Part shown: positions 1,341 through 54,386 of the stretch, piece by piece
How positions within the stretch are numbered: position 1 is the stretch's first letter
How the letters are laid out: each line of letters starts with the position of its first letter
NCBI GenBank assembly: GCA_025963725.1
Contig: JAOQAE010000002.1
Coordinates: 124,001 to 188,000 of the forward strand
Source of the DNA: Bacteroidota bacterium
GTDB taxonomy: Bacteria; Bacteroidota; Bacteroidia; 2-12-FULL-35-15
Direction of reading: 5' to 3'
DNA length: 64,000 nt
Notes under the pieces: model-generated
The model's database searches: none
Seen by the model: only the letters and a program-made list of their open reading frames with translations
What the model was told of the DNA's origin: nothing
Made by a program: the position numbers and the translations under genes

Positions 1341-1464
1341 GGCGTACCACCCCAACCCTCCTACGAGGAGGGAGCCGATCCTGCTAAAAATGTTCATTAT
1401 TATTTTGCTAAATGCTCTCGCATGCAGGATGCATTCCCCTCCTTCCAGGAGGGATTAGGGGGTG
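1341..1464. repeat. REP-like palindromic element, intact copy
   Basis: The element starts with ACCACCCCAACCCTCCT and ends with AGGAGGGATTAGGGGGTGGT, which are imperfect inverted repeats. Positions 1341-1447 are repeated almost exactly at 1716-1822 (offset 375 bp, two or three mismatches). A further short relative (CCCTCCTAAAGGAGGG) lies near 1495. This copy is uninterrupted and serves as the reference empty site for the island insertion in the second copy. Confidence 0.8.
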
Positions 1465-1822: not shown

Positions 1823-1837
1823 TCTAAATTACGCAAC
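1823..1837 (+). repeat. Left terminal inverted repeat of the island
   Basis: TCTAAATTACGCAAC is the perfect reverse complement of 13186-13200. It directly follows the TTCCA target copy at 1818-1822. Confidence 0.85.
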
Positions 1838-1857
1838 GGCCAAGGCTGTTTAAAATC

Positions 1858-1893
1858 AAAAGGCCAGATATTTCTAGAAATATCTGGCCTTTT
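1858..1893. terminator. 36-bp perfect palindrome, probable bidirectional terminator
   Basis: AAAAGGCCAGATATTTC, TA/GA at the centre and its exact complement form an 18-bp stem capable of a strong hairpin with A and T runs on both sides. It lies 20 bp inside the left island end and downstream of the minus-strand DUF4365 gene (stop at 2037). It could stop transcription in both directions and insulate the island; a role at the transposon end is also possible. Confidence 0.65.
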
Positions 1894-2036
1894 TGACTTA
1901 CCTGTTAAGATTTTTGTAAAATTCTTGATTTTGCTAAACCTAAGGGGATTATGTGATTTAAACACGTTGTATCACATATTCGAGCTAAAGTTCAAGTAAG
2001 AGTCTTATCTTTAAAAAGCGTTTGTATAATATTTGC

Positions 2037-2930
2037 TTAATACTGATATGGCAATTGTCCATCATCGCCAATATTTATAACGTAATTAAATAAGGAGATA
2101 TTTTTAGTCAACCAGTAATCCATTTCATTATGAACAAATTCTTTTATTTGTTTCAAAATTTCGGTAGTTTTAGGATCAAGCATTGTTACGAGTTCTGTCG
2201 CATCATGCTCATAAAAATCTTCACGCCCGTTAGGAAATTTAATTTTTGACTTTCGTTTCAATTCCTCAAAACTATCTATTTTCCATTCCAGCCTAAAATA
2301 GCGACATAAGAATTCATAGTTCCGATGCATAGATTCTAAATATATCAAATCTAGCCCCTCCAATGCCAAATGAAAATCCCTTCCAGAATGCTCTTCTATA
2401 TAGTCTTGGTGGTGCTGTACATTTGATAAAAAAAACAAGAACTCGCTTTCAAATCGCTCCCGATAAAATTCATAATAAAAACGAGTTTTAAAATCTGTCT
2501 CACTAAAGACAAGAGATTTTTTTATTATATAATAGAATTCTTCTTGCTTTTCATAATTAATATAGTTTTGCCTTATGTATTGATCTACAGGAATGCAATA
2601 CATTTCCTGTGCTTTAATATCTGTTAAAAAAAGAAACACTGGAACTTGAAAATGATACCAATAATTAGTGGTACTTATTTTAACGTCTCGAATTGTAAAC
2701 TTATCTTCTTTAGTCCATGATATTGACTCTTTAGATTTTAGTTGGCATAAGACAAGATGCCCAGTTAAAGTACCATTGTCATTTACAATTTCGACATAAC
2801 AATCTATCCCATAATCTCTCTCTGTCACCTGCCGAACAATCCATTTTCTCGGAATTTTATCATTGAACAGTTTAAAAGAATCTGACTCCGAGATATGTTG
2901 CGAAGCTCTTATAGGCATTTCCCTTTCCAT
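2037..2930 (-). CDS. DUF4365 domain protein, predicted nuclease-like
   Basis: A 297-residue protein whose first ~150 residues match the DUF4365 pattern: a conserved basic N-terminus (RASQHISESDS), then Y-G-I-D-C-Y-V-E (residues ~41-48) and CQLKSK (~63-68), followed by a Y-W-x(4)-VPVFLF-T-D segment near 98. The acidic G-I-D plus Q-x-K arrangement resembles the PD-(D/E)xK nuclease core, a relation proposed for this family; catalysis is inference. The C-terminal ~140 residues are helical and unrecognised. It is the first gene inside the left end and is divergent from a small gene at 3000. Two start codons are possible (ATG 2930 or ATG 2918). Codon use is AT-rich like the rest of the island. Confidence 0.7.
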   Translation of the reverse strand: MEREMPIRASQHISESDSFKLFNDKIPRKWIVRQVTERDYGIDCYVEIVNDNGTLTGHLVLCQLKSKESISWTKEDKFTIRDVKISTTNYWYHFQVPVFLFLTDIKAQEMYCIPVDQYIRQNYINYEKQEEFYYIIKKSLVFSETDFKTRFYYEFYRERFESEFLFFLSNVQHHQDYIEEHSGRDFHLALEGLDLIYLESMHRNYEFLCRYFRLEWKIDSFEELKRKSKIKFPNGREDFYEHDATELVTMLDPKTTEILKQIKEFVHNEMDYWLTKNISLFNYVINIGDDGQLPYQY

Positions 2931-2999
2931 AAATATTAAGCTCGTATAATAATTTTTACTATTTATATCAAATCTTCTTTTTCTTCCATATTTATCAAC

Positions 3000-3254
3000 A
3001 TGGAAGAGTTCAAACCAAATATTGAGACAGTTGCCTTACTAAGCAGCTTCGATACACGAGAATACTCACGTTTAAATCAAATCCGCGAAATTATGCAGCT
3101 TGGGCAACTGATAACTGATAAAAGCAAGTTATATGAGATCAAGCGCATTCTGAATGAGTCAATGATAGATTACGTAGAGGTTGGAAAGCAAACTAATCCT
3201 AAATATTATCAGGATTTTCCAATTCAAAAACTTCTTTTTCCAGAAGTTTCCTAA
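3000..3254 (+). CDS. Small hypothetical protein (84 aa)
   Basis: An 84-residue frame starting MEEFKPNIETVALLSSFD. It is mostly helical, with no signal peptide or membrane segment, and matches no family I recognise. It is divergent from the DUF4365 gene and its last 56 bp overlap the 3' end of the minus-strand gene at 3199-3546. Such a long convergent overlap means one of the two calls could be wrong. Composition and the complete start-to-stop frame in an otherwise empty stretch favour a real gene. Confidence 0.45.
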   Translation: MEEFKPNIETVALLSSFDTREYSRLNQIREIMQLGQLITDKSKLYEIKRILNESMIDYVEVGKQTNPKYYQDFPIQKLLFPEVS

Positions 3255-3546
3255 CGTAAACATTTTTCCAGATACCCTTTTGGTTAATGGGGTCCGCAGG
3301 TAAGCTTTGAAGGCCATATTTACATGCTTCTTTTTTTACTTCTCTTGCGGCTTCTAAATCGAGTGTTTCTTCAAAGAAAACAATGTCTTTATACTGTTCA
3401 TTATACTTCCACTGAAGTTCCTTCTCATTTGCATCTGTTATCCCAATCCCATACAACCTGAAGCGCTCCTGATTACCAAGAGTACTCAGAATATTCATTA
3501 CAACAACATTAGCATCGAAAAGAGGAGGATCAAAATTCATATTCAT
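3199..3546 (-). CDS. Hypothetical protein (115 aa) with a G-(I/L)-W-(K/R) C-terminal motif
   Basis: A 115-residue soluble protein starting MNMNFDPPLFDANVVV. It is not recognised. Its C-terminal stretch KGIWKNVYVRKLLEKE resembles NGLWRDVLLRQLREEN at the C-terminus of the 61-residue protein at 5462-5647 on the other side of the transposase gene, so the two may share a short interaction or fold element. It overlaps the plus-strand gene at 3000-3254 tail to tail by 56 bp. Confidence 0.5.
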   Translation of the reverse strand: MNMNFDPPLFDANVVVMNILSTLGNQERFRLYGIGITDANEKELQWKYNEQYKDIVFFEETLDLEAAREVKKEACKYGLQSLPADPINQKGIWKNVYVRKLLEKEVFELENPDNI

Positions 3547-3642
3547 TTTATTTCAATAAAGATACATATCAAATTAAAATACACAAATGTCGGATAGCCC
3601 ATTTCTTTTGAAAATGAGCAAATAGTTCTCCACAGAATCACA

Positions 3643-4950
3643 TCACATTATTTTTTCATAAGGTATACCTATATCATCAAAACAAAATACTTCATTCAAG
3701 AAGTGACACGTTACAGTAATAAAAACACGTCTAAACTTGTTTAATCGCAAGTTTCCAAGCTTTAATTCTGGAAGTTTTTCAGCAAGAACTTTTAAGACTC
3801 CTTGATAAATATTGTTCGCTAAAGCTGAAATCACAAAAAAGACCATATTTTGGTTTAAGAAAGAAAATGGAGGGTAGTTCCAATTATAATGTTTTTTGAG
3901 CACATGAAAGTTATGTTCCATAGTCGCCCTATGATTGCTAAAGGTCAAAATCTCACTTATAGAACTCTCAAAATCATTTGTAAGCACTAATTTATATGCG
4001 TATTCCCCTCGCTTTATCCATTTTGATGGCCGCTTTCTTTGTGCAACTGAAGTACGAATGACAACCATGCGAAATTCAGTCGTATCGTGAGCGAATGTAT
4101 AGGGTATGCTTGTACACTCGCAATCCCAACCAATTTTTTGAGTTTTATAAGTAATTGGTTCCCACACAGCATTCTTCCTTAAGCGCTCGTAAACCAAAGG
4201 ACTACTCTTTCCACCTACATAAAATTGTATATTTTGGTCATGGAGATAGTTCAGAGCTTTTATACTAAAACCCGCAGCATCCATTCTCACTTTACCAACC
4301 GTTATCTTGTTTTTTTTCAGTAATTCAATAGAGTTTTCTAAGCAGTCTTTGATTTCAGAACTTGGTGCGACATTCCCTCCACGCATACTAATATATACGG
4401 GTAGCTTTCCAATAAAACTCACCATAGGGAAGAAACCGTAATTTCTAAGGTAATTTTTTTCCGCTTCATAACACTCAGTTAGAATTTCTGTAGCATCCAT
4501 ATCCAAGCAGTATGATTCATTCTCTTTTAATAAACCAGTACATTTAGTTCCTTTAATTAGAAGGTCATTCATCAAAAGGTTCTCGTTATATTTTCCATAG
4601 GTAAGTTTCTTTCCATTTCCTTTTCCTGTTCCTGGCTTTGCAATAGTATCTGTGGCAAGACCTTTCATTACACGACCAAATGTATCGTGACTGCAAACTT
4701 TAATATTCAAATCCGAAAGAATATTGAGGCTTCTTCCAATTTTTGTAACATGTTCTAGTCTTTTAGCACCACAATAATTTGCGAGCATCCATGAGATAAT
4801 AACATCTTCGTATTTATATTTAGCTCTATAATTTCGTTGTCCTAAGCAGTCACGAATAGTATTAGCCACTTGGAAATTGTCTATGATTTGCATCATAGGC
4901 ACGATACCTCCGTGTGGTGTACTTTTAATATTCGATCTTTCAGCTTTCAT
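3643..4950 (-). CDS. IS1380-family DDE transposase
   Basis: A 435-residue transposase of the DDE group 1 type. Visible motifs include the first acidic signature D-M-D-A-T-E, then Y-x(4)-GFFPMVSF and RGGNV, V-R-M-D-A-A-G-F carrying the second Asp, and a C-terminal N-H-R-A-T-M-E-H-N-F-x(3)-K segment carrying the Glu, followed by F-x-N-Q-N. This order is typical of IS1380. The gene is full-length and uninterrupted. I prefer the ATG at 4950 (MKAERSNIKS); an in-frame TTG exists at 4971. I could not find convincing inverted repeats directly around the gene, so it may belong to the larger island rather than to a separate insertion sequence. Confidence 0.88.
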   Translation of the reverse strand: MKAERSNIKSTPHGGIVPMMQIIDNFQVANTIRDCLGQRNYRAKYKYEDVIISWMLANYCGAKRLEHVTKIGRSLNILSDLNIKVCSHDTFGRVMKGLATDTIAKPGTGKGNGKKLTYGKYNENLLMNDLLIKGTKCTGLLKENESYCLDMDATEILTECYEAEKNYLRNYGFFPMVSFIGKLPVYISMRGGNVAPSSEIKDCLENSIELLKKNKITVGKVRMDAAGFSIKALNYLHDQNIQFYVGGKSSPLVYERLRKNAVWEPITYKTQKIGWDCECTSIPYTFAHDTTEFRMVVIRTSVAQRKRPSKWIKRGEYAYKLVLTNDFESSISEILTFSNHRATMEHNFHVLKKHYNWNYPPFSFLNQNMVFFVISALANNIYQGVLKVLAEKLPELKLGNLRLNKFRRVFITVTCHFLNEVFCFDDIGIPYEKIM

Positions 4951-4997
4951 CTGTTTCCCTTGTTGGTTCAAGATTGTAGGGATGGATGTAAAAAAAA

Positions 4998-5441
4998 TTA
5001 TTTCGAATTATCCTTTCTTCTTTTTTGAACAACAAGGAGAATATTTTGGGCGATATGCATGCCTATGGAGTCTTCATTCAGAACATTTCCACCTCCATAA
5101 TAGATTGTATCCTGCCCACCAGAAACGTCAAAGCAAAAACACAATTCCCTTGGACTTAACTGAAAAAAATCTGTCACGGCTGCAACTGTTGATTCATTTA
5201 CATCCATATCCACAAGGATGGGATCAAGATTAGAATTTAAGGACCAGGAATCATTAAACAGCATGCATAATTCCCAGAAGATGTAGTCATGGCATCTGAT
5301 CTCATAATGCAACCTTACATTTGAGTCCAGCTCCACAATATTATAAGTGGAGATAACGCCATGTTCTGGATGGTCGTTGATAAGGGATATGTGTTGGGCG
5401 AATAATAAGAGTCTTGTATTATAAAGTAATTGATCTTTCAT
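4998..5441 (-). CDS. Hypothetical protein (147 aa)
   Basis: A 147-residue protein starting MKDQLLYNTRLLLFAQH, with no signal peptide or membrane segment. A central block (HYEIRCHDYIFWELCML) and a later F-C-F-D-V-S-G-G-Q-D stretch look like an alternating beta/alpha fold, but no family is recognised. It lies 20 bp downstream of the minus-strand 61-residue gene and just upstream of the transposase, so the two small genes probably form one transcript. Confidence 0.55.
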   Translation of the reverse strand: MKDQLLYNTRLLLFAQHISLINDHPEHGVISTYNIVELDSNVRLHYEIRCHDYIFWELCMLFNDSWSLNSNLDPILVDMDVNESTVAAVTDFFQLSPRELCFCFDVSGGQDTIYYGGGNVLNEDSIGMHIAQNILLVVQKRRKDNSK

Positions 5442-5461
5442 CTGATTTAAGTTTTAAAGGG

Positions 5462-5647
5462 TTAGTTAAAGTTTTCTTCTCTCAATTGACGCAGGAGAAC
5501 ATCTCTCCAAAGGCCATTAGGGACTTGTTTAGGATTACGGTTTTGTGTGTTGGAGAGGTAGTACTTTGATCCTCTGGTTCGGTGCGAAGTGAATTGCTGC
5601 CAGATGTAGTCATCAAACAGCATACGTCTGAGTTTTCTTTTTTTCAT
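5462..5647 (-). CDS. Small basic hypothetical protein (61 aa)
   Basis: A 61-residue, strongly basic protein (MKKRKLRRMLFDDYIWQQ) ending in NGLWRDVLLRQLREEN, a motif shared in outline with the end of the protein at 3199-3546. It is followed after 20 bp by the 147-residue gene at 4998-5441. The function is unknown. It lacks Cys clusters, so a zinc-binding role is unlikely; its charge would suit nucleic-acid or protein binding. Confidence 0.45.
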   Translation of the reverse strand: MKKRKLRRMLFDDYIWQQFTSHRTRGSKYYLSNTQNRNPKQVPNGLWRDVLLRQLREENFN

Positions 5648-6044
5648 TTTGGGTTGTTTTAAGGTCCCGCTCCAAGGGAGTGAAAAAATCCCCCGATCTT
5701 ACTCACTCTGCGAAGTGAATGGTAAAGCATTTCATTTGGCACTGAAATACTATTCACATCACTTCACAAGACTTTAGGTCTCCTTGTGATTGGGATGGTT
5801 AAAAAGTGTTCAGGCCCTGTGAAGGGTGAACAGAAATTCAATACATTTGATTAAGATTGGCCTCGATCTCCAGTGCCAGGAGAAAGAGTATATATGTGGG
5901 GGAAAATAAATTCTTTTTAAAATAACACCTCAAAAGGTGCATCTTTAATGATGCTTTTAACGAAGTGATTTAAAGAAAGATTCAAAAAATGTAACTTTTT
6001 TTGCAAATTGATTATAATTATCTGAAAATCAATAAAATAAATTC
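5648..6044. other. Non-coding stretch with small hairpins between divergent genes
   Basis: No convincing gene is seen in these 397 bp. They hold two adjacent short hairpins, CACCT/AGGTG (5926-5939) and GCATC/GATGC (5939-5954, followed by TTTT), and a CACT/AGTG palindrome near 5706. The distal part is very AT-rich and probably holds the promoter of the XRE-PIN pair. Confidence 0.4.
6008..6032. promoter_or_regulatory. Possible operator upstream of the XRE-PIN pair
   Basis: TTGATT (6008-6013) and AATCAA (6027-6032) form an inverted repeat with a 13-bp spacer that ends 12 bp before the ATG of the XRE gene at 6045. Auto-repression by the XRE protein would be usual for such a pair; binding is inference. 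Confidence 0.35.
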
Positions 6045-6263
6045 ATGGAAGACGATATTTATTTAAAGAAATTGGGGGAATTAATTGTTAAAATCAGGTC
6101 TGAAAAGGGAGTTACGCAGATGGAATTGTCTCGTAAAATAAATTCAACTAATACACACTTGCGACGGATTGAACGAGGAGAAACGAATGTAACGCTACTT
6201 ACCATGCGTCATATCGCTGACGCATTATCAGTTTCTCTTTCGGAATTAATTGATGTAGAGTAA
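6045..6263 (+). CDS. XRE-family helix-turn-helix regulator
   Basis: A 72-residue protein that is almost entirely one lambda-repressor-like HTH domain: G-E-L-I-V-K-I-R-S-E-K-G-V-T-Q-M-E-L-S-R, then a recognition helix around NTHLRRIERGETN (residues ~36-48) and TLLTMRHIADALSVSLSELI. It has no other domain. The stop codon is followed after 1 bp by the ATG of the PIN-domain gene, so the two are almost certainly co-transcribed and probably translationally coupled. The arrangement resembles a toxin-antitoxin or auto-regulated nuclease module with this protein as repressor or antidote. Confidence 0.85.
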   Translation: MEDDIYLKKLGELIVKIRSEKGVTQMELSRKINSTNTHLRRIERGETNVTLLTMRHIADALSVSLSELIDVE

Positions 6264-6264
6264 C

Positions 6265-7368
6265 ATGATTGATAAAAACATAAATAATATTTCATTAGAT
6301 ACTACTTTTTTTGAGGAGCAGAATTTTCTTTCAGGAGCCAAACTGCAGGAAATAGGTAAGCTTTCAAAAGAAGGCGTGATTAAAGCTTATATAACTGATA
6401 TTGTATTTAGGGAAGTGCTTTCCAGGTTTGAAAAGGGCTTAAAAACAACTGATGAAAAAATCAAGAAACCTAAGTCAATGTTGGAAGGTAATGCGAGATT
6501 ATTGAAGAATTTTTCACAATACAAGTCTTACTTTGATTTGCCATCAGTTGACGTGACTGTATTATATAAAGAGTTCGCTAACCAGTTCGAGACGTGGATT
6601 AAGAAAAGTAAGTTTATAATAATCAAGACTGACCATATCACAATTGCTAGTGTTATGCAAAATTATTTTTCCAACAAACCACCCTTTAAAGAAGGCGAAA
6701 AAAAACATGAGTTTCCCGATGCATTTACTCTGCAGGCACTCAGTGAATATTTTAGCAAGTTAAATGAAAGATCGTATGTTCTTTCGCGTGATAAGGATTT
6801 ACTTACCTTCAAAAGTGATGCTTTAATTCCAATATCTGACAGTACAGAGATAATAGATGCAATAATAAGAGCACAAAAAGAAAAAGAAACGAGAAGCACT
6901 ATTCAATTCATTGAAAAAGTTTTTGATAAAGAGCGAGATAAATTAGGTGATGAAATAGCCCTTGAGTTGGAAGAGTCGATTTCAGATGAGTTAACTTATA
7001 ATGATTTCTATAATGATGCCAATAATCTCACGTTTGACTACGTGGAATTTGTGGATATTAGTAATGTAACTATTCATCCCTTTTCGATTATCTATCTCAA
7101 CAATACTGACGCAAAACTTGAAGCAGATGTTACTTTTCAACTAAATGCAAAGTTTTACATGATTGATGATTCACATGCATGGTTTGATAAAGAAAGTAAT
7201 ATGTGGTATGGAAGGGACAGTGTAGAGAAGATAATCAATGAGTCAATTACAACTTCTGTTACATTTAATATAGATCATAACCCAAAGGCTGGAAAAGACT
7301 ATGCATCAGTCGAATTTGATGAAATTAATAATGGAAAGGAATTTAATATCTGGTCCTATGTTAGATAA
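6265..7368 (+). CDS. PIN-domain (DUF4935-like) nuclease with C-terminal extension
   Basis: A 367-residue protein. Residues ~8-200 show the PIN pattern of acidic residues: S-L-D-T-T (Asp12), F-R-E (Glu50), E-F-P-D-A-F (Asp152) and S-R-D-K-D (Asp176/178), matching the DUF4935 subgroup of PIN-like RNases. The last ~170 residues are rich in beta-strand-forming residues and have no recognised name; this may be a sensor or substrate domain. It follows the XRE gene by 1 bp. Its stop codon (7366-7368) touches the stop of the convergent Gp37/Gp68 gene (7369) with no gap, so the two modules are packed tail to tail. RNase activity is inferred from the family; all four acidic positions look intact. Confidence 0.75.
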   Translation: MIDKNINNISLDTTFFEEQNFLSGAKLQEIGKLSKEGVIKAYITDIVFREVLSRFEKGLKTTDEKIKKPKSMLEGNARLLKNFSQYKSYFDLPSVDVTVLYKEFANQFETWIKKSKFIIIKTDHITIASVMQNYFSNKPPFKEGEKKHEFPDAFTLQALSEYFSKLNERSYVLSRDKDLLTFKSDALIPISDSTEIIDAIIRAQKEKETRSTIQFIEKVFDKERDKLGDEIALELEESISDELTYNDFYNDANNLTFDYVEFVDISNVTIHPFSIIYLNNTDAKLEADVTFQLNAKFYMIDDSHAWFDKESNMWYGRDSVEKIINESITTSVTFNIDHNPKAGKDYASVEFDEINNGKEFNIWSYVR

Positions 7369-8073
7369 TCATACTGGCATTGCATCATAAGTTTTGCCCT
7401 CTAACGTTCGTCCTGTTGTGCTTTTGCGTACTCCACCCCATTGTTTAAAAAAGAAAGCAGTTCCTGCTTCTTCGCATTGATTCCGAAGATCAATAACCCA
7501 TTCTTTTTTCATCGGCCTTGCTCCAGGACCTGATTCGCCACCTACAATAACCCAATCAATTTTTTTTAGATTTAAATTAGGAAGGGGCCCTAACAAAGGC
7601 TCTAAAGAGAGGAATTTAGTCATTGCTTTTGTTCTACGAAGAAATGCAATTCTATCCACAACTTTTTCATTTTCGACTGAAACTCCCATCCAGATATTAG
7701 GTGTCCATGTCAAATGTTTATTATATTCCAAAAGAAGGTCTGCTCTTTTAGTGAGAACTTGATAAGTATGCTGAGGAGTTTCATTCATTACCTTAAAAAC
7801 CTGTTGAATATACTCCAGTGGAACATCTTTATGAAAAAGGTCACTCATGGAATTGACAAAAACTAATTGGGGCTTTTTCCAGGTATAAGGTATCTTCAAA
7901 GTCGCAGGATGAACTGTGAGTTTAAAACCATTCGCATATTTTTTTTGACGCATGGCTTTTAACCTTTTCGACATGACTTCAGCGTAACAGAACTTACAAC
8001 CCGCTGTAAGCTTGTTACAGCCTGTGGTTGGGTTCCATGTCATTTCAGTCCATTCTATGCTTGATTGTGCCAT
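7369..8073 (-). CDS. Phage Gp37/Gp68 (DUF5131) family three-Cys-motif protein
   Basis: A 234-residue protein of the family first named from phage Gp37/Gp68. The N-terminus has W-N-P-T-T-G-C-x(6)-C-x2-C-Y-A (Cys19, Cys26, Cys29), the three-Cys motif, which probably holds a metal or a 4Fe-4S cluster in a radical-SAM-like barrel. Further family signatures are V-F-V-N-S-M-S-D-L-F (~70), Y-Q-V-L-T-K-R, W-M-G-V-S-V-E-N and V-I-V-G-G-E-S-G-P-G-A-R (~178-189). It lies 7 bp downstream of the tcmP gene, the usual genomic partner. The biochemical reaction is not established. The length (~234 aa) is close to the family's usual size and all three cysteines are present. Confidence 0.85.
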   Translation of the reverse strand: MAQSSIEWTEMTWNPTTGCNKLTAGCKFCYAEVMSKRLKAMRQKKYANGFKLTVHPATLKIPYTWKKPQLVFVNSMSDLFHKDVPLEYIQQVFKVMNETPQHTYQVLTKRADLLLEYNKHLTWTPNIWMGVSVENEKVVDRIAFLRRTKAMTKFLSLEPLLGPLPNLNLKKIDWVIVGGESGPGARPMKKEWVIDLRNQCEEAGTAFFFKQWGGVRKSTTGRTLEGKTYDAMPV

Positions 8074-8080
8074 AATTTTA

Positions 8081-9235
8081 TTAAGGAAATTTTACTATAC
8101 AGGCATTTGCTAATGTCAAGACCCCTTTATTCTTTCTTCTATCTTTTGCAAGCGGGGTAACCGCCACTATATTATCTTTCTCCAACTGCTTCAGAGCTTC
8201 TTTATAATTTCTCGCAAGATAGGGTTTATTTATATGATGTTCTTCTATAACGGCAGCGACAGTTAAGGTTTTTCCTTTAAAATGCTGTAAAAGCTCATTT
8301 TTCAAATGCTTCATTCTACCTGCTGGTTTGAACGATTCATCATCACCAAAAAGACTCAGCTGAGGAGATGCAGCCTCTCCGCTATTTACCCTTTCAATAT
8401 GATATTCCAAATATGGAATACCATCTGCATCCGAAAGAGAATACTTTCCCATGATTTCCTTCATCATCGTATATCCTTTTTGATGCTTACTGATGAAGAT
8501 CAAGTGATGTGAAGTCTTGTTATCCTCATCCTTCCAAAACTTAAACGGAAGGAAATATTCACCGCCCTTTTCTTTTATTGAAACCCGCAATGCTTCCAAG
8601 ATCATGGACTCACGTTCTTGAGGATTGTTGCTTTTTGCATATCGCGCTCTCAAATCGTTGAATCGTGCTTTACCAAATAAACTTGTCATATAATCCTCAA
8701 CCTTAGGGTTTGTGATTGCCATGTTAATACGATTATAATTGAAGAAAAAAACACAATCGCATCCCCAATCCTTGAACAAAGCAGATAATAGTTTCAGCGA
8801 TAATCCTTTATAACCAAATGGATCAACAAATACCAACGAAGGGACAATATTTACGTTTTGAAACATCTCGGCTATAGTGTCCTCTATTTCATCATTATTG
8901 TAAGTAATATTATCCGCAATATTTTTGATGTTTTCTAAGCGATCTATCTCCTGCTGCAGCCGCTCTATGTTTGCCTTTTCCTTATCATTGAAGCTTAGTA
9001 CAAGCTTCTTACTCAGCGTAGGGCTATTGATGGCTTTTGTGATGATCTGTAGCGGAGTAGAATGAGTTCCATCATTGTAAACGCCAGGGCCGCAGTATAA
9101 GTCAATATATGCGATCTTATCAACGTTCTTGTTTGACAGGATGATGCTTGACCATACCGAAAAATATTCACTTACAATTGCTGCCTTTGTTTTCGATGCT
9201 TCTGAAGCTTCATCGAAAAAATTCTGAGTTGCCAT
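8081..9235 (-). CDS. tcmP: Three-Cys-motif partner protein TcmP
   Basis: A 384-residue protein defined by its pairing with the Gp37/Gp68 family. Residues 43-51 (Y-I-D-L-Y-C-G-P-G) look like the SAM-binding loop of a Rossmann methyltransferase and residues 138-142 (D-P-F-G-Y) lie where such enzymes carry D/N-P-P-Y. The C-terminal ~80 residues look like a winged helix (LLQHFKGKTLTVAAVIEEH... then LKQLEKDNIVAV), which suggests nucleic-acid contact. It is the promoter-proximal gene of a two-gene minus-strand operon with the three-Cys protein 7 bp downstream. Methyltransferase activity is inferred from motifs only. Confidence 0.85.
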   Translation of the reverse strand: MATQNFFDEASEASKTKAAIVSEYFSVWSSIILSNKNVDKIAYIDLYCGPGVYNDGTHSTPLQIITKAINSPTLSKKLVLSFNDKEKANIERLQQEIDRLENIKNIADNITYNNDEIEDTIAEMFQNVNIVPSLVFVDPFGYKGLSLKLLSALFKDWGCDCVFFFNYNRINMAITNPKVEDYMTSLFGKARFNDLRARYAKSNNPQERESMILEALRVSIKEKGGEYFLPFKFWKDEDNKTSHHLIFISKHQKGYTMMKEIMGKYSLSDADGIPYLEYHIERVNSGEAASPQLSLFGDDESFKPAGRMKHLKNELLQHFKGKTLTVAAVIEEHHINKPYLARNYKEALKQLEKDNIVAVTPLAKDRRKNKGVLTLANACIVKFP

Positions 9236-9321
9236 TTATTGGATTTGGTTTTCAAATATACGAATTTTTAATGCCTTAAAATCATAACACGATGAATATC
9301 AGCCACAAAGACGCTTAGGCA

Positions 9322-9927
9322 TTAATGATTCTTCTTCCAAACAGGATTATTATAATCACTATCGGTCACCTTTTCAAAAGCGACCCTACCTGCAAGTAAG
9401 GGGGTTGTTGGCAGTAATTGATAGAAATACCCCTCAATTTTTTGAACATCTCCCTTGTCTGCTATAATCGTTGCTGTGCAGTAGCCTTTTTTGACAATAC
9501 TATGATCTATCATTTCATACTCCATATTAAATTGTGTCTTATCATGTACATAAATCCAGATAGAGTTCCATGGAATAATTTCATTTCCTTTAAAATCGTT
9601 ACAATTCCACGCATGTTTTACTGTATCATAAATGTCTTTCCACATTCTTTCTCCCCGCAATTGAAGTGCACCATTATCTTGCTTAATGACTTCAAAGCGC
9701 CCACCGTGCTGATATAAGTCATTGTAGTCTGTACAAACATACTTCCACCTACCCTCAATGCTCAAATTTCTCACATTTTGTAATTGTGCTTCTGTAGGAG
9801 TTTTAGGAGGTGAGGCAATATAGGTCGTTACAATACCTGAAATAGCTGTTATGATTGCGATAATAACAGCTTTCCATGTGTCAATTTTTGCAATCCTAAT
9901 TGGTCTTGGGATGTTCTGTTTGGCCAT
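9322..9927 (-). CDS. Membrane-anchored beta-rich protein, possibly Cap15-like
   Basis: A 201-residue protein with one predicted membrane helix (residues ~19-37, AVIIAIITAISGIVTTYIA) after a short basic N-terminus, then a linker rich in Pro and Thr and a domain of alternating strands. Features include I-E-G-R-W-K-Y, GGRFEVI, L-Q-L-R-G-E-R and a late K-I-E-G-Y-F-Y. A short TM unit followed by a small barrel-like domain with G-x-W-x-Y recalls the S-2TM-beta effectors of CBASS (Cap15), but only one helix is seen and no cyclase gene is nearby, so this is tentative. I chose the ATG at 9927 over an in-frame TTG at 9957. It is transcribed alone, 86 bp downstream of the tcmP start. Confidence 0.55.
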   Translation of the reverse strand: MAKQNIPRPIRIAKIDTWKAVIIAIITAISGIVTTYIASPPKTPTEAQLQNVRNLSIEGRWKYVCTDYNDLYQHGGRFEVIKQDNGALQLRGERMWKDIYDTVKHAWNCNDFKGNEIIPWNSIWIYVHDKTQFNMEYEMIDHSIVKKGYCTATIIADKGDVQKIEGYFYQLLPTTPLLAGRVAFEKVTDSDYNNPVWKKNH

Positions 9928-10098
9928 AAGTTTGAGGTTGATTTGCCGCAAGTTCAATCAAAATAACGTTATTTCCATGGACACTTTTGAGCTTCTGTGA
10001 CATTCTTTTAGGGTCTAGTCACTAAAAACTTAAAAACTCTTTACTTTATTTTGCCTTTATGTTACTTTTTAAATTAGGCGAACTATATCCAATTCAAT

Positions 10099-10368
10099 AT
10101 GACAGGGGGAACACATTTTGTTGATGCTAGAACAGGCTTCATATATCAAGGAAGAGATGAAAGTTATATAGATAATACGGAGGAAGTATTATATGAAATT
10201 CACGGGGAGATATTCGAACAGAATACTCACTCCATGATGAGTGTTGACTATTGCTTTAAACAACTATCTGATGCAAATGAATATCTAGATCAACTTGCAG
10301 AGAGGTTTCCTCTTTCGTTAATCACGATAACAAAAAAAGTTAATCGGTTATGCAGATTCAGAGGTTAA
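10099..10368 (+). CDS. Small hypothetical protein (89 aa)
   Basis: An 89-residue soluble protein starting MTGGTHFVDARTGFIYQGRD and acidic in its middle. It has no signal peptide, membrane segment or recognised domain. Its 3' end overlaps the convergent gene at 10348-10863 by 21 bp. AT-rich codon use matches the island. Confidence 0.45.
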   Translation: MTGGTHFVDARTGFIYQGRDESYIDNTEEVLYEIHGEIFEQNTHSMMSVDYCFKQLSDANEYLDQLAERFPLSLITITKKVNRLCRFRG

Positions 10369-10863
10369 AAAATCCGCATCTTCATAGTCCTTCTTTGATA
10401 TACAGACGTAAATGAAATAGGCTGAAGCTTTTCCATCTGGCCCTTCTCCACCAGGACGCTTATTACCCACTAAAATTGGATTGTCAACTAGATTGTGAAG
10501 GTAGGCTATCGCATCTATTTCCATTTGCTTGATATCTTCAACATTGTCCATTCGGCAGAGCACAAACATTTTCTCATAATCTACACTGTGAGCTACGGAT
10601 TCTTTAATTAATTGCTGGTCAATTTCATAAATACGGGCCATGATATGAGATAACATTGGTGGATAGACCGCTGTGTTATAATTGTTTCTAAAGCGACCAC
10701 ACGGATTTACACTTTGTCCTACATATAACCTCTTGTTGGGATATAACTTTTGAATGGTTATCAGTTTTAACATTATGTGTTCAATGGTGCAGAAGGATAA
10801 TGCAGAAAAATATTGAAAAGATACAGTATCCTCACATTGAAATTTTTGTTCCGTTTTCGCCAT
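10348..10863 (-). CDS. Hypothetical protein with a possible degenerate GIY-YIG domain
   Basis: A 171-residue protein. Residues ~45-62 read K-R-L-Y-V-G-Q-S-V-N-P-C-G-R-F-R, close to the second half of a GIY-YIG nuclease (Y-V-G-x-S-x-N-x2-x-R), and a later M-E-I-D-A-I-A-Y-L-H plus N-K-R-P-G-G-E-G fits the catalytic Glu and the terminal N...GG of the family. The preceding GIY strand is not recognisable, so the domain is either divergent or a chance match. It lies between unrelated small genes and overlaps the gene at 10099-10368 by 21 bp. Confidence 0.5.
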   Translation of the reverse strand: MAKTEQKFQCEDTVSFQYFSALSFCTIEHIMLKLITIQKLYPNKRLYVGQSVNPCGRFRNNYNTAVYPPMLSHIMARIYEIDQQLIKESVAHSVDYEKMFVLCRMDNVEDIKQMEIDAIAYLHNLVDNPILVGNKRPGGEGPDGKASAYFIYVCISKKDYEDADFLTSESA

Positions 10864-10957
10864 TTTCTATTTTTTAAGTAACGCTAAAATAAATCAAAAA
10901 AATAAGCCTCCCAAAAATTGTGAGGCTCAAGTTGCAGGGTGTTTTAACATTACACAA

Positions 10958-11248
10958 TTATCTCTTCCACCTGGCAGGTTGTGAGTCATAAGCACATTTC
11001 TTTGAACAGTAGCCATATCCAGACCAGGATGTCTGCTCAAACTGTTCTCCTCCCACAGTGCTCCAGCCATTTCCTGAAAAAGATGCATTACACAGGCCAC
11101 ACTTGTGTTCCCCACTATCACTTGAAGTGCTAGAGGAGGCCGTTGCTGGTCCATTGATCCCTCTGTAGATTAGACCACCAAGAATTAACACCCCAAAGAA
11201 ACCTACGATGGAGTAGCGTTTTAATGTCTTAATAACTGATTCTTTCAT
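10958..11248 (-). CDS. Small membrane protein with a possible zinc-binding tail
   Basis: A 96-residue protein with a basic N-terminus, one membrane helix (residues ~13-29, IVGFFGVLILGGLIYRG), a Ser/Thr-rich linker and a C-terminal domain holding C-x2-C (K-C-G-L-C-N) and C-x3-C (Y-C-S-K-K-C), which could bind zinc. No family is recognised. It is 12 bp downstream of the lipoprotein gene pair (11261-12318) on the same strand and so is probably the third gene of that transcript. Confidence 0.6.
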   Translation of the reverse strand: MKESVIKTLKRYSIVGFFGVLILGGLIYRGINGPATASSSTSSDSGEHKCGLCNASFSGNGWSTVGGEQFEQTSWSGYGYCSKKCAYDSQPARWKR

Positions 11249-11260
11249 TTTGTTTGGGTT

Positions 11261-11752
11261 TTAGTTTATAATAAAGCCTTTTGAATAATTTTCTGTTGCT
11301 GAATCTGTTGGACAAAATGTGCTGTAAATGTTAGAAATGCTGCTTCTGAGTGATATAATCCCATCTTCATTCACAACCCACTTTGCCATTAAGCTTCCAC
11401 TATACACTTCCAAAAAAGTGGTGTCCTGAGTGCTGATCTTAAGCGCCCTTACCAGGTTGGGAACAAATGATCCTGCACATAACGCAGAATCCGTTGGAGT
11501 AACAATCCCCGCTGCTTGTGAATTCAGATACATTGTATCAAGACTTATCCCTTGACATTCCGTTATTAGATACGGAGCTGAGAATGAGCCAGGATAAGCC
11601 CCATTTTGAACATCCAATAGGTAGATGTCCAGGTTTACTGTTGTGTCTGCTACAATTGCCCTTGGAGGAGATGTAGAAGGTATTATTTCTTCATCCCTCT
11701 TGCAGGAATATAAACCGAACAGAATTATAGCGATTAATGATAGTTGTCTCAT
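11261..11752 (-). CDS. Lipoprotein, paralogue of the upstream gene (163 aa)
   Basis: A 163-residue protein with a lipoprotein signal (L-Y-S-C, Cys17). The mature part begins with an acidic, Pro-rich linker and contains N-L-D-I-Y-L-L-D, T-E-C-Q-G-I-S-L-D-T and V-P-N-L-V-R. The same blocks occur in the same order in the upstream gene at 11749-12318 (D-L-E-I-Y-L-L-D, T-R-C-N-G-V-M-L-D-S, M-P-N-I-I-E), so the two arose by tandem duplication. The start overlaps the upstream stop by 4 bp (ATGA), indicating coupled translation. The function is unknown; the predicted location is the periplasm or outer membrane. Confidence 0.7.
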   Translation of the reverse strand: MRQLSLIAIILFGLYSCKRDEEIIPSTSPPRAIVADTTVNLDIYLLDVQNGAYPGSFSAPYLITECQGISLDTMYLNSQAAGIVTPTDSALCAGSFVPNLVRALKISTQDTTFLEVYSGSLMAKWVVNEDGIISLRSSISNIYSTFCPTDSATENYSKGFIIN

Positions 11753-12318
11753 AGAGTTGTCAGTGTTTTAAATGAATGTTCAGCTGTTAGGTAACTTCTT
11801 GCAGATACAGCATTATCAGTTACCTCTCCATAAATGCCATACGGACCAACAAGGAAGGTTGCCAGCTTTACCTTATGACCAATGATATCTGTGTTCCATA
11901 TTTCCAGTGAGGTTGTATGATTTCTATTGATCCGTACATCCTCAATGATATTGGGCATGCAATACGTCAACACATTATTAAATGAGAAATCAGGAGTGGA
12001 ATCCACAGGATTCATGTTCAGGGAGTAGACAGAATCAGCATATGTTAAGGCAAAGCTATCCAGCATCACCCCGTTGCACCTGGTGATTCCATAAGAGGAA
12101 TAAAAATTATTGGTGTTTTGATAATTGAATACATGGTGGCCTGCAGCATTCACATTTCCAAGGTCAATGGAGTCGTAATCCAGCAAATAAATCTCCAGGT
12201 CAACTGAATCAATGTCTTTCACTTCTGCTACTTGATTTATAACAATAGAAGTTTCTTTCCTGCAAGAGAAAAGGCTTACAGCGATTATAAATGCAAATAA
12301 TGGAGTTGTCAGCTTCAT
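11749..12318 (-). CDS. Lipoprotein, paralogue of the downstream gene (189 aa)
   Basis: A 189-residue protein with a lipoprotein signal (S-L-F-S-C, Cys19). It shares several conserved blocks with the 163-residue lipoprotein that overlaps its 3' end, including two Cys positions (in the T-x-C-x-G block and the C-M-P-N block) that may form a disulfide. It is the first gene of a minus-strand operon (two lipoproteins plus the 96-residue membrane protein) and is divergent from an XRE regulator at 12449, with operator-like palindromes in the shared intergenic region. No family is recognised. Confidence 0.7.
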   Translation of the reverse strand: MKLTTPLFAFIIAVSLFSCRKETSIVINQVAEVKDIDSVDLEIYLLDYDSIDLGNVNAAGHHVFNYQNTNNFYSSYGITRCNGVMLDSFALTYADSVYSLNMNPVDSTPDFSFNNVLTYCMPNIIEDVRINRNHTTSLEIWNTDIIGHKVKLATFLVGPYGIYGEVTDNAVSARSYLTAEHSFKTLTTL

Positions 12319-12351
12319 GAAAACATCTTCTTTTCAGTAGCTAATATACAA

Positions 12352-12374
12352 AAAGTATGCAATATACATACTTT
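12352..12374. promoter_or_regulatory. Operator-like inverted repeat AAAGTATG-N7-CATACTTT
   Basis: A perfect 8-bp inverted repeat with a 7-bp spacer lies 33 bp upstream of the lipoprotein start. The half-site AAAGTAT recurs in a second palindrome at 12425-12443, next to the regulator gene. Confidence 0.6.
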
Positions 12375-12424
12375 AACGAAAATAATACATCGCAATAGTA
12401 TTTTATTCGTAGAAAGGATAGGTA

Positions 12425-12443
12425 ATACTTTTATCTAAAGTAT
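12425..12443. promoter_or_regulatory. Operator-like inverted repeat ATACTTT-N5-AAAGTAT
   Basis: A perfect 7-bp inverted repeat with a 5-bp spacer ends 5 bp before the ATG of the XRE gene at 12449. It uses the same heptamer as the palindrome at 12352-12374 with the half-sites swapped in order, consistent with binding of the XRE protein to its own promoter. Confidence 0.6.
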
Positions 12444-12448
12444 ATATC

Positions 12449-12754
12449 ATGAAAACTTTAGGCGATAAAATCAGGTACTGCAGGACTCTTAAGGGATGGA
12501 GCCAGGAAGAAATGAGTGATAAATTGGAATTATCCTTGCCCGCCTATTCGAAAATTGAAAGAAATATCACAGACGTAGGCTTTAAACGCCTCACCCAAAT
12601 TGCCAAAGTATTCGGGATGACAGTTATTGAGTTGCTGTCTGTTCCAAATAAGCCTGCAGATCAGTCCGATTTAAATAAAGCGCTGGTTGAAAGGGATCAG
12701 GAGATTAATCGGCTGCAAAAGAAGATTATTGATCTGCTGGAGAAGAAAAAATAA
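12449..12754 (+). CDS. XRE-family regulator with C-terminal coiled coil
   Basis: A 101-residue protein. Residues ~5-62 are a lambda-repressor-like HTH (G-D-K-I-R-Y-C-R-T-L-K-G-W-S-Q-E-E-M, recognition helix LSLPAYSKIERNITD). The last ~35 residues (ALVERDQEINRLQKKIIDLLEKKK) form a clear heptad coiled coil for dimerisation. This short HTH-plus-coil form is common in Bacteroidota. It is divergent from the lipoprotein operon, and the intergenic region carries two palindromes with the same half-site, one next to each start, so it probably controls both transcripts. Confidence 0.85.
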   Translation: MKTLGDKIRYCRTLKGWSQEEMSDKLELSLPAYSKIERNITDVGFKRLTQIAKVFGMTVIELLSVPNKPADQSDLNKALVERDQEINRLQKKIIDLLEKKK

Positions 12755-12859
12755 TTTTTTTATCGTTCTGCAACTATATAAAACATTGATAATAAATAAG
12801 TTGTGCGTCAAAATAAATAAAAAGCCCTAATTTATAAAGACCTTGACTTTCTCCTGACC

Positions 12860-12884
12860 TTTGGGAAAATCTAAAATTCCCAAA
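12860..12884. promoter_or_regulatory. Inverted repeat TTTGGGAA-N9-TTCCCAAA before a small gene
   Basis: A perfect 8-bp inverted repeat (12860-12867 and 12877-12884) ends 4 bp before the ATG at 12889. It could be an operator or an mRNA hairpin that hides the start region. Confidence 0.45.
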
Positions 12885-12888
12885 TACA

Positions 12889-13143
12889 ATGAACTTCGAA
12901 GAAGCTAAACAAAGCAAAGCCAACATTGGAAACACCAGTGAGGTAATGGACGAGCCAGGACGTGTTACTGTAACCCCAACTCAACCCGATGATTTTGAAA
13001 AATACAAGGAACATGTCTTCAATGAATGGCCTTTTCCTGTATCAGATGAAGATGCAAAACTATTTTGCAGGAACAATATCTATCGGGTTAGGGCTCTAAC
13101 AATGCATGAAAGTAGTAACACAATTGTGTGGAAAGATTTATAG
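12889..13143 (+). CDS. Small hypothetical protein (84 aa)
   Basis: An 84-residue acidic soluble protein starting MNFEEAKQSKANIGNTSEV and ending in IVWKDL. No domain is recognised. It is the last gene before the right island end (13200) and follows the XRE regulator on the same strand after 134 bp. A perfect inverted repeat lies just before its ATG. Confidence 0.5.
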   Translation: MNFEEAKQSKANIGNTSEVMDEPGRVTVTPTQPDDFEKYKEHVFNEWPFPVSDEDAKLFCRNNIYRVRALTMHESSNTIVWKDL

Positions 13144-13185
13144 GCCATATCAGTGCTTTTTGCCCCTAATTTATCTTGTTAAGCT

Positions 13186-13200
13186 GTTGCGTAATTTAGA
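13186..13200 (-). repeat. Right terminal inverted repeat of the island
   Basis: GTTGCGTAATTTAGA is the exact reverse complement of 1823-1837 and is followed by the second TTCCA target copy (13201-13205) and the rest of the interrupted REP element. Confidence 0.85.
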
Positions 13201-13229
13201 TTCCAGGAGGGATTAGGGGGGCTGCTATT

Positions 13230-35659: not shown

Positions 35660-38600
35660 TTACCGCATGATCATAAAGCTGCCGTTCTGGTGATACTCCT
35701 TTCCGGTTGCGCCTTTCGCATCGAGCATATAGAAGTAGGTGCCATCAGAAACTTCCACGCCTGCCGTGGTGCGGCCATCCCAGGAGCCGTGCACACCGTC
35801 AAACTCATACATCTTCAATCCCCACCTGTCGTAAATGGCAACATGCAGCTCGGTAAGCCCGTGGCCAAGGATCGTGAAGGAATCGTTGCTGCCATCATTG
35901 TTCGGTGTAAAGATATTCGGAACAGTGAATGTGACTTCGCCGTCGGCAAAAATGCTGAGCGCAGTAGTATCGGTACAGCCGCTTTCATCGTCGATAGCGA
36001 TCATCGTGATCGCGTAATTGCCTTCTGCCGTAAATATATAAGAGGGGCTGTAAGCTGTGGAGAACGGGCTTCCGTTGATGCTCCAGGTGTAGCTGTCGCT
36101 GCCGTCGACGCCGCTGCTCGAGTTGGTAAAGGAAACATTCAGCGGGATGAATCCCGAAACAGGGCTTGCGCCTGCAGCCGCCACGATGTTGTAATTGGAA
36201 GCGCCTGCCGTTGAAATGCTGCTTGTACATCCATTCACGTCCGTGGAAATGATGTAATACGTTGCCGATGTATTAAGCGGCAATGAAGGCGAGTAGGTGC
36301 TGCCTGTTTGAACCAGCGTTGTGAGTGCCGGATCGCTGTACCAGCTGATGGTGCCTGTGCCGCTTGCAGATAAGAGCAGCGTATCGCCAACGCAGGTGGT
36401 ATCGCTGGTTGCAAGTGGGGCGTTAGGCGACTGGTTCACCAGCAATGTAACCATTGCCGTATCGGCACAGCCCGCGCTGTTCGTAACGATCACGGTGTAG
36501 GTTCCGCTGTTGCCGGTTGTGCTGCCTGTGATCGATGGATTCTGCACGGTTGATGTAAATGTTCCGGGGCCTGTCCAGCTGTAGCTGCCGCCGCCTGTTG
36601 CGCCCAGGTTAACGGTGTTCCCGGAGCAAACCGTATCTGTGCTGATACTTGCTGTAGCTGTTGGATTTGCATTCACGGTAACTGTTACGGTGGAAGCAAC
36701 GCTGAAGCAGCTTCCTGCCGATGCGATCACGGTGTAAGTGCCGCTTGCCGCTACCGTAGCCCCGGTAAGCGTTGGGTTCTGCGAGCCGGAGATGTATCCG
36801 TTAGGGCCATTCCAGCTGTAGGACGTGGCGCCTGTAGAAGTGGAAGAGAAGAGGAGGTTCTGTCCTTCGCAAACGTTGGATGCATTCACATTTGCAACAG
36901 GAGCCGCCGGTGTAGGGTTCACAAGAATGGAAACGCTTGCCGTATCGGAGCAGCCTGCCGCATTGGACACTGTGACAATGTAAGTGCCGCTGTTGCTTAC
37001 TGCCGCCGTTGCAATCACAGGATTTTGTGCTCCTGAAATGTAGCCGCCCGGGCCAGTCCAGCTGTACGATGTGCCGCCAGCTGAGCTTAAGCTAAGCGAT
37101 GTTCCCGAGCAGATCACTGTTCCGCTGCTTCCTGCCGTTGCTGCAGGATTTGCATTCACGGTAACGTTAACAGTGGTGCCGGAGCTGCTGCAGCCTGTTG
37201 ATGAAGCCGTAACCACGTAGCTTCCGCTTTGGATCACCGAGGAAGAAGTGATGGAAGGATTCTGCGCGGATGAGGTATAACCGTTTGGCCCTGTCCAGCT
37301 GTACGATGTTGCGCCTGCAGAGGAAGATGTGAACGAGATCGTTTGGCCTTCGCATACATTCGCCGCAGCTGCGCTTGCCGTAGGGGCAGGTGGTGTTTGA
37401 TTCACAAGCAGGCTGGTGGTATCGCCTGACGTACAGCCGTTGGCATCGGTCACGGTTACGGAGTAGGTTCCGCTCATGCCAACTGTTGCCGGATTAATAG
37501 TTGGGTTCTGTTGCGTTGACGAGTATCCCGATGGCCCGCTCCAGCTGTAGCCTGTTCCGCCCGAAGCGACAAGCGAGATGGTATCGCCGCTGCAATAAAC
37601 GGAACCTGCTGCGTTTGTTGCATTCGCAAGCGGCAATGCATTCACAATAACATTTACGAGATGTGGTGCGCTTGTACAGCCGCTGGATGTAACGGTTACG
37701 GCGTATGTTCCTGCATCGCCCGCTGTTGCGGAGGAGATACTGAGCGTGGAAGTGCTGCTGCTTGAAGATGGGCCTGTCCAGCTGAATGCCGGTGATGGTG
37801 CGCCCGAGGAAGCAGTAAGTGTAAAGGCTTCGCCAGCGCAGAGCACTGTGTCCGTTGCTGTAACCGTAGGCATTGCCGGTGCTCCGGGGTTGGTAATGCT
37901 GTATGGGCCGAATACGGAATTACATCCGTTGGCATCGGTCACCGTTAAATTATAAACGCCGGCTGGCTGGCTCGTAAGGTTTGCCGTTGTGCCGACCACT
38001 GCGTTGGAGGCATTGGTCCAGGAATAGCTCAATGTGCCGCTTCCGCTTGCAACGGCTCCTGTGAGGGCGCCGGTGGCAACCCCGCAATTGGACGGAGAAG
38101 AAGTTGGCGCAGTGCTGATCACCGGAACATTGTTCACAGTAACGGAAGCGACCGCAGTGTTCGAGCAGGAATTGCCATCTGTCCCGGTAACGGTATAGCT
38201 TGTGCTACCCGACGGGCTAACGCTGATCGCAGGGCCGCTTGCACCGGTGTTCCAGCTGTAGGTGTTTCCGCCGCTCGCTGTCAGCGTGATGTTTTGTCCG
38301 CTGCAAATAGTGTTTGAATTTACTGCGATCGCAGGCAATGCATTCACGGTAACTGTTGAAACGGCGGTATTGGTGCAGCTGTTGGCGGCAGTTCCTGTAA
38401 CTGTATAGCTGGTTGGCGATGCAGGCGAAACTGAAATAGTGTTCACGCTGTTGGTGCCGTTGCTCCAGGTATAAGAAGAGGTTGTAGATGCTCCATTCGC
38501 CGTTAATACAGCTGTTTGCCCGTTACAAATGGTCGCTGAGTTCACGGTGATGGTTGGCAATGTATTCACAGTAACGGTTGCAACGGCAGTGTTCGTACAT

Positions 38601-53499: not shown

Positions 53500-54326
53500 C
53501 CATACACAGAATCAATCGCGAAGCGATAAATCTGCGATAATAGTTAAGTGATAATCTGCGAATCTGCGGCTAAAAACTCTCAGGCTTTTAATTAAAAAGA
53601 TCCTTCGGCTTCATTTCATTCCGCTCAGGATGACATTCTGCTCCGGCAAAGCCACAGCAGTATCAAATCATAATTGATCATAGATCGCGCAAGCGATCAT
53701 TTTTCAAACATAAAAATCTTAAGAGATCTGTGTTCCATTACACACAGCAAAACATACCCGGAATCAATCGCGAAGCGATAAATCTGCGATAATGATTGAG
53801 CGGTAAATCTGCGAATCTGCGGCTAAAAACTCAGGTTTTAATTAAAAAGACCCTTCGGCTTCATTTCATTCCGCTCAGGATGACATTCTGCTCCGGCAAA
53901 GCCACAGCAGTATCAAATCATAATTGATCATAGATCGTGCAAGCGATCATTTTTCAAACATAAAATCTTAAGAGATCTGTGTTCCATTACACACAGCAAA
54001 ACACAGCCGGAATCAATCGCGAAGCGATAAATCTGCGATAATGATTGAGTGATAAATCTGCGAATCTGCGGCAAAAAAACTCTCAGGCTTTTAATTAGAA
54101 GATCCTTCGGCTTCATTTCATTCCGCTCAGGATGACATTCTGCTCCGGCAAAGCCACAGCAGTATCAAATCATAATTGATCATAGATCGCCAAGCGATCA
54201 TTTTTCAAACATAAAAATCTTAAGAGATCTGTGTTCCATTACGCACAGCAAAACACAGCCGAAATCAATCGCGAAGCGATAAATCTGCGATAATGATTGA
54301 GCGGTAAATCTGCGAATCTGCGGCAA
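53500..54326. repeat. Tandem repeat array, unit ~250 bp, about 3.3 copies
   Basis: Full units run roughly 53581-53831, 53832-54083 and 54084-54326, preceded by a partial unit from 53500. Each unit holds GATCCTTCGGCTTCATTTCATTCCGCTCAGGATGACATTCTG, ATCATAGATCG..CAAGCGATCA, AATCTTAAGAGATCTGTG and AATCGCGAAGCGATAAATC, several of which are self-complementary. Units differ only by a few bases, so the array is recent or is kept uniform. Confidence 0.85.
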
Positions 54327-54386
54327 AGTCCTTTAAAAATCAAACCATTATTGCGTTCCATTAATTTCGTTCACCGCATGGTAATT

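Follow-up and report, generated by a model that had tools for sequence, protein, structure and literature searches.

An island with an IS1380-like transposase and its cargo

The window, i.e. the whole 64,000-nt stretch of Bacteroidota DNA analysed here, contains an island of 11,378 bp (1823-13200) with one IS1380-like transposase gene. TTCCA is repeated directly at both flanks (1818-1822 and 13201-13205, both + strand), a 5-bp duplication that fits the 4-5 bp criterion for IS1380. The terminal inverted repeats (TCTAAATTACGCAAC[G/A]GC) are of the CC(T)-type expected of this family: the left repeat TCTAAATTACGCAACGGC (1823-1840, + strand) pairs over 18 bp with the right one (13183-13200, - strand; TCTAAATTACGCAACAGC when read inward). 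The two are identical at 17 of 18 positions, so the right end is not a poor, distant substitute of the ISEcp1 kind. A terminator-like palindrome with 16-bp arms (AAAAGGCCAGATATTT..., 1858-1893) lies just inside the left end.

The transposase gene (3643-4950, - strand) encodes a DDE transposase of 435 a.a., assigned by NF033539, alignments and a fold match; its start ATG at 4950 was set by alignment (the listed ORF begins at 4971). D152, D224 and E345 are invariant acidic residues in the alignments and would fit a DDE triad. The protein scores 179.5 bits against NF033539 (the IS1380 model; cut-off 180), its closest relatives score above the cut-off (199 for the one in genome G174 and 205 for the one in G386), and it groups with these two at SH-aLRT 99; its NCBIfam matches are IS1380 and, weakly, IS1634. 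On these similarities we file it as a putative divergent IS1380 member. The nearest folds to its AlphaFold model (mean pLDDT 81) are Tn5 (1muh, E 5e-9) and then piggyBac (6x67, E 7e-5), both solved structures and both with only ~10% identity. Tn5 and piggyBac make fixed duplications, of 9 bp and of TTAA, respectively. The 4.79-Mb genome has a single transposase copy of this kind. We rejected a nested IS within the island, given this single copy and the absence of a second IS1380-like end pair around the transposase gene (allowing up to 4 mismatches).

The cargo includes genes for a DUF4365 protein (2037-2930, - strand; a weak hit to an Argonaute-type defence-system REase), a small HTH regulator (6045-6263, + strand) adjoining a PIN-domain protein (PIN_12; 6265-7368, + strand), a DUF5131 radical-SAM-like protein (7369-8073, - strand; PADLOC candidate PDC-M41B/M30B), TcmP (three-Cys-motif partner; 8081-9235, - strand; PADLOC candidate PDC-M30A) and another HTH regulator (12449-12754, + strand). 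DUF5131 and TcmP together form the candidate defence pair PDC-M30/M41 in PADLOC, and the island probably carries anti-phage genes. The cargo of related elements is defence-like as well: the island in G386 encodes HEPN_AbiV, DUF4145, two putAbiC proteins and DUF3800. Two islands from distant genomes (L065 and L087 below) share DUF2130 and a Panacea/SocA antitoxin-type gene, which are perhaps a linked module.

The island splits a REP hairpin at its axis

The island is flanked by the two arms of a stem, CCCTCC (1812-1817, + strand) and GGAGGG (13206-13211, + strand), so that the occupied site reads CCCTCC TTCCA [1823-13200] TTCCA GGAGGG, with the left TTCCA as the hairpin loop. This hairpin, split exactly at its axis, is a member of a REP family. 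The family is real: CCTCCTNNNAGGAGG with at most one mismatch has 141 matches per strand in the genome, versus 18 for the reversed control. Its members are paired palindromes, usually ACCACCCC...CCTCCTnnnAGGAGG... and the inverse, 60-140 bp apart.

The paired REP unit also occurs intact, without an insertion, 375 bp upstream of the occupied one (1326-1464; 93% identical over 122 nt to 1701-1822). Its hairpin, CCTCCTTCCAGGAGG (1438-1452), can be drawn with the stem CCCTCC/GGAGGG and loop TTCCA, or with CCCTCCT/AGGAGGG and loop TCC. When the island is removed, the resulting site (...GCATTCCCCTCC TTCCA GGAGGGATTAGGGGGG...) is the same as the upstream copy across the hairpin and aligns almost base for base with 1326-1464 as far as the REP end; the empty site is therefore documented inside the window. 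A sequence-only reading of this DNA had placed the island in the loop of a REP hairpin, and the occupied and empty sites bear this out, stem and loop included; only the interval it gave, starting at 1437, began one base early. The REP hairpins have short stems of 6-7 bp, and folding energies are not striking compared with shuffled sequences (z = -1.0 for the window; z = -1.8 and -1.0 for the related elements L068 and L186).

Insertion at hairpin axes is confined to two clades

That reading had also proposed mapping other insertions of the same kind, and the mapping supports it. Both ends were mapped for 45 IS1380-type elements, 11 of which fall in two clades (SH-aLRT 99 and 100 in the transposase tree) and 34 elsewhere. 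Insertion at a hairpin axis was called for seven of the eight window-clade elements with both flanks, for 3/3 of the second clade and for 0/34 of the others. Searches of genome contigs with the single protein gave no match, and those with an alignment gave 10 loci; no relatives of the window transposase were found among viral contigs, and plasmids and phages held only relatives with 25-36% identity. Four loci (L067, L070, L092 and L093; truncated or decayed) were omitted as their ends were not found, and L074 was omitted since it abuts another copy. The sample is thus 11 elements only, mainly from draft metagenome assemblies. At L074 (G099:C51, 90-140 and 126-3934) an IS1380-type element of 3.8 kb is present twice, with TTATT alone between the ends of the copies (ATTTTAGA TTATT TCTAAAAT), an arrangement like a tandem dimer or a circle-junction intermediate.

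Two of the GC-rich palindromes used as targets were shown to be REPs, of the same kind and with repeated copies: that of the window and that of L068 (G013, 5.7 kb; CCCCTC TTGA GAGGGG), which has intact copies of its REP at 14026 and 14461, ~100 and 530 bp off. L065 (G174, 12.4 kb) is in another GC-rich palindrome, with complementary flanks and without a clean duplication (CCCCTTAGTA // TGATAAGGGG). Three window-clade elements are in terminators: L069 (G001, 8.2 kb; AAAAAAAGCTGAA CCATCTGG TTCAGCTTTTTTT), L087 (Fluviicola sp. NORP2, 12.0 kb; AAAAAAAGCC CTTAAAAAAG GACTTTTAA) and the G386 island (Flavobacteriales BRH_c54, 19.5 kb; AAAAAAACGCC TTGAATAATTCAA GGCGTTTTTTTTT). Other palindromes are used by L096, a 1.9-kb IS of the same clade (TTTAAGGTCA CAATTTG TGACCTTAAA), and by the small ISs of the second clade: L077 (ATCCCGAA TGCT TTCGGGAT), L186 (CCCGAT AGCT ATCGGG) and L137 (GATGGCGCGGATT TRCA AATCCGCGCCATC, with one mismatch, TACA/TGCA). 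The stems (CCCTCC, CCCCTC, CCCCTTA, GCTGAA, AAAAGCC, TTTAAGGTCA, ACGCC, ATCCCGAA, CCCGAT and GATGGCGCGGATT) have no common sequence, which suggests that the targets are recognised by shape, not letters. The idea that the REP as such is the target does not hold, as terminators and other palindromes are used equally; REPs are supported as one source of hairpins among several.

Copies in sequence without hairpin structure had been named as evidence that would refute hairpin targeting. Within the two clades there is one such element, L071 (G014, 3.1 kb), which has the 8-bp duplication AAACTGTT and no stem; it may be old and decayed, because its transposase gene has an in-frame stop (TGA). The G386 island was at first known by its right end only, and its right flank (TTGAATAATTCAAGGCGTTTTTTTTT) resembled one arm of a terminator. 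A search upstream for the complementary arm found AAAAAAACGCCTTGAATAATTCAA at a distance of 19.5 kb, with the left end that had been lacking (CCTTAATTACGCAAGTTT) directly after it. The element spans 19,534 bp (G386:C26, 38329-57862) with a 13-bp duplication; the left end predicted from the terminator arm was thus found.

Among the other IS1380 elements, L128 (G018), L130 (G050) and L143 (G225), with CCCAAATTACGC-type inverted repeats, have short AT-rich complementary flanks (TTTAT//ATAAA, AATAAA//TTTATT) without a clear duplication. They were not counted as hairpins because the flanking bases may be the element's own; these flanks may be either element bases or a small palindromic target. Hairpin targeting is not tied to cargo size: L072 (12.8 kb) and L073 (8.5 kb) belong to neither clade, and both lack a hairpin and are flanked by 5-bp duplications.

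In 8 of the 11 two-clade elements, the 120-bp empty site has its strongest dyad axis exactly where the duplication is centred (offset 0.0; for L137, without an exact duplication, the axis was compared with the junction); in L065 and L186 it is the second-strongest axis that lies there. A perfect stem of at least 6 bp directly beside the duplication is found in 7/11 two-clade versus 1/34 other elements (Fisher p = 5e-5; the one exception is L130), and in 7/9 versus 0/16 if only duplication-bearing elements are considered (p = 7e-5). The rate of such stems is about 6e-4 (about 0.06%) at random positions (binomial 9e-21 for 7/11) and 0.26% when flanks are re-paired between elements. Chance palindromes can be ruled out on the 7/11 versus about 6e-4 comparison and the exact axis match. 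On the transposase tree the hairpin trait requires three changes, against a mean of 8.0 on shuffling (0/500 shuffles as low). The yes/no label used for the tree includes our own judgement for the imperfect stems of L065, L087 and L137, and the clades were delimited after the pattern had been seen; the strict stem count is independent of how the imperfect stems were judged. The tree predates the discovery of the G386 left end, and the G386 transposase (row L066) was counted in it as one without ends. A looser test, in which any pairing between the two arms of the predicted fold counts, distinguishes the groups only weakly (10/11 versus 15/34, p = 0.012); since loose pairing is also seen in 15 of the 34 others, it is exact adjacency and centring that carry the contrast. 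Overall, targeting of hairpin axes by the two clades is strongly supported.

The elements also have hairpins at their own ends. Perfect palindromes with arms of at least 11 bp occur within 150 bp of nine of 16 window-clade ends, versus 1/68 ends of other IS1380 elements; ~1% of random windows contain one. These palindromes (the one at 1858-1893 in the window, and those in L068, L069, L071, L096 and the G386 island) are often terminator-like, several of them with A and T tracts.

The length of the duplication varies within the window clade

Seven window-clade duplications are exact: TTGA, TTCCA, CAATTTG, CCATCTGG, AAACTGTT, CTTAAAAAAG and TTGAATAATTCAA, i.e. 4, 5, 7, 8, 8, 10 and 13 bp, and in all seven the outermost bases are complementary to each other. 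The 7-13 bp cases exceed the family norm of 4-5 bp (PMC12116815). In the comparison group 14 of 16 duplications are 5 bp long, one is 4 bp and one is 7 bp. In the second clade L077 and L186 have 4-bp duplications. The G386 and L087 transposases are 81% identical, and their elements made duplications of 13 and 10 bp.

Where the duplication is long and lies within a palindrome, it is formally also possible that a shorter duplication is extended by bases from the ends of the element. A target origin of the extra bases is the simpler reading of these sequences, because they vary from one element to the next and correspond to the host stem in every case.

Comparison with known systems

IS1272 and TnSha1 (IS1182 family, Staphylococcus) likewise use inverted repeats and terminator hairpins without consensus and can carry cargo, but they delete the target stem-loop and make no target duplication (PMC5678879, PMC4923244). 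The two clades meet the IS1272 criterion of a target stem-loop without primary consensus; no stem-loop deletion of the IS1272 type is observed in them, and their transposases are IS1380-like, not of the IS1182 family. The present elements keep both arms and duplicate the loop: an exact duplication is found in 9/11, both arms are retained in eight of those nine (the ninth is L071, without a stem), and L065 and L137 retain both arms without an exact duplication. A loop-duplicating branch has been drawn only as a hypothetical pathway in the IS1272 paper (Fig 13, pathway c; PMC5678879); our elements would be a natural case of a pathway that has so far existed on paper.

Insertion into REP palindromes, exactly at the axis for ISRm22, is known for other ISs: a 2006 survey (PMC1525189) lists IS1397, ISKpn1 and ISPsy8 (IS3 family), IS621, ISPa11, ISPpu9/10 and ISRm19 (IS110), ISRm22 (IS4), ISRm5 (IS256) and ISNm1106 (IS5), with IS1380 absent. 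Those ISs pick a particular REP, whereas the window clade uses hairpins of unrelated sequence. Within the IS1380 family, ISEcp1/ISEc9 and the Bacteroides elements IS942/IS612/IS613 share the transposase family, CC(T)-type repeats, a single transposase and kilobases of passenger DNA, and make 4-5 bp duplications (PMC12116815, PMC2887853); the Bacteroides and Persicobacter IS1380 copies that we examined (ISEcp1 was not among them) show no hairpin insertion. We found no open-access paper on IS1380 elements with hairpin or palindrome target sites (subscription papers and ISfinder were outside our scope), and priority for this finding is not established.

Proposed mechanism and alternative explanations

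We consider it probable that these elements are IS1380-type cut-and-paste transposons with a transposase that favours palindromes of any sequence in extruded form, as cruciforms or hairpins, and that their insertion duplicates the loop. With less assurance, leaning only somewhat in its favour, we propose that the loop of the cruciform, and not the transposase, sets the length of the duplication. Both strands of the palindrome would be extruded (extrusion was not observed and is inferred), and each transposon end would be joined at the 5' side of a loop, one per strand, at an inferred cut position. Repair of the gaps would then duplicate the loop and weakly paired adjoining stem bases on both sides, leaving a duplication centred on the dyad with a length that follows the loop. 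The usual hairpins would be REP palindromes and intrinsic terminators in intergenic DNA, and hence low-damage sites for defence-type cargo. By inference, the terminator-like end hairpins of the element may replace the terminator that it splits. That the transposase itself chooses the target is inferred too.

A transposase dimer with two-fold symmetry could instead prefer symmetric sites in B-form duplex without any extrusion; we hold this unlikely, although it cannot be set aside. Symmetric target preference is common among DDE transposases, as ISRm22 (IS4 family) illustrates by inserting at the axis of palindromy (PMC1525189); the predicted fold resembles those of Tn5 and piggyBac, and the second-clade duplications are of a fixed length (4 bp). 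But duplex recognition would leave conserved base positions, and there are none: the arms complement each other without a consensus, more than 20 bp out in L069. A fixed stagger is also at odds with duplications of 4 to 13 bp in one clade, including those made by the 81% identical transposases.

Random insertion followed by survival in harmless intergenic REPs and terminators is very improbable. All mapped insertions of the two clades do lie between predicted ORFs (a doubtful 104-aa ORF reaches the end of L096), but selection cannot set a duplication exactly on a dyad axis, and hairpins are not where the other IS1380 elements, subject to the same selection, are found; this explanation is largely refuted. 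We give hardly any credence to the possibility that the complementary flanks belong to the transposon (as transduced DNA or an extension of its terminal repeats): palindromy within several of the direct repeats does formally allow the boundary of the element to be drawn further out, but intact empty copies of the hairpin exist near both the window island and L068, the flanks differ by element while the internal ends (CCTTAATTACGCAAGTCT-like, CC(T)-type) are conserved, and where the flanks form a terminator, their outer sides carry host-like A and T tracts. Equally implausible is recognition of a conserved REP sequence, as by the known REP-targeting ISs, which could still apply within a sub-lineage (the REPs occupied by the window island and L068 are of one kind, and the GC-rich palindrome at L065 is similar) but is contradicted at the level of the clade by L069, L087, L096 and the G386 island, in terminators and palindromes of unrelated sequence.

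Loop-duplicating transposition into cruciforms remains the best but an unproven mechanism. The length of the target duplication is normally a fixed property of the transposase, and a length that varies with the target hairpin would break that rule. If the mechanism is true, such elements would serve as genetic reporters of cruciforms being extruded in vivo, and it would account for the entry of large defence-gene cargo into genomes at little cost in damage: terminators and REPs are plentiful and intergenic, and because hairpins need no common sequence, species barriers could be crossed without a conserved attachment site.

Other repeats in the window

A second dispersed palindrome family (GATCCCGTGTCGTGGCACGGGATGAC) has at least six copies in the window (14991, 21216, 54384, 55401, 55453 and 60374). 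Four tandem repeats of ~250 bp lie between genes at 53501-54333. A 2011-aa ORF with 222-nt internal repeats (35660-41695) probably encodes a repetitive surface or secreted protein.
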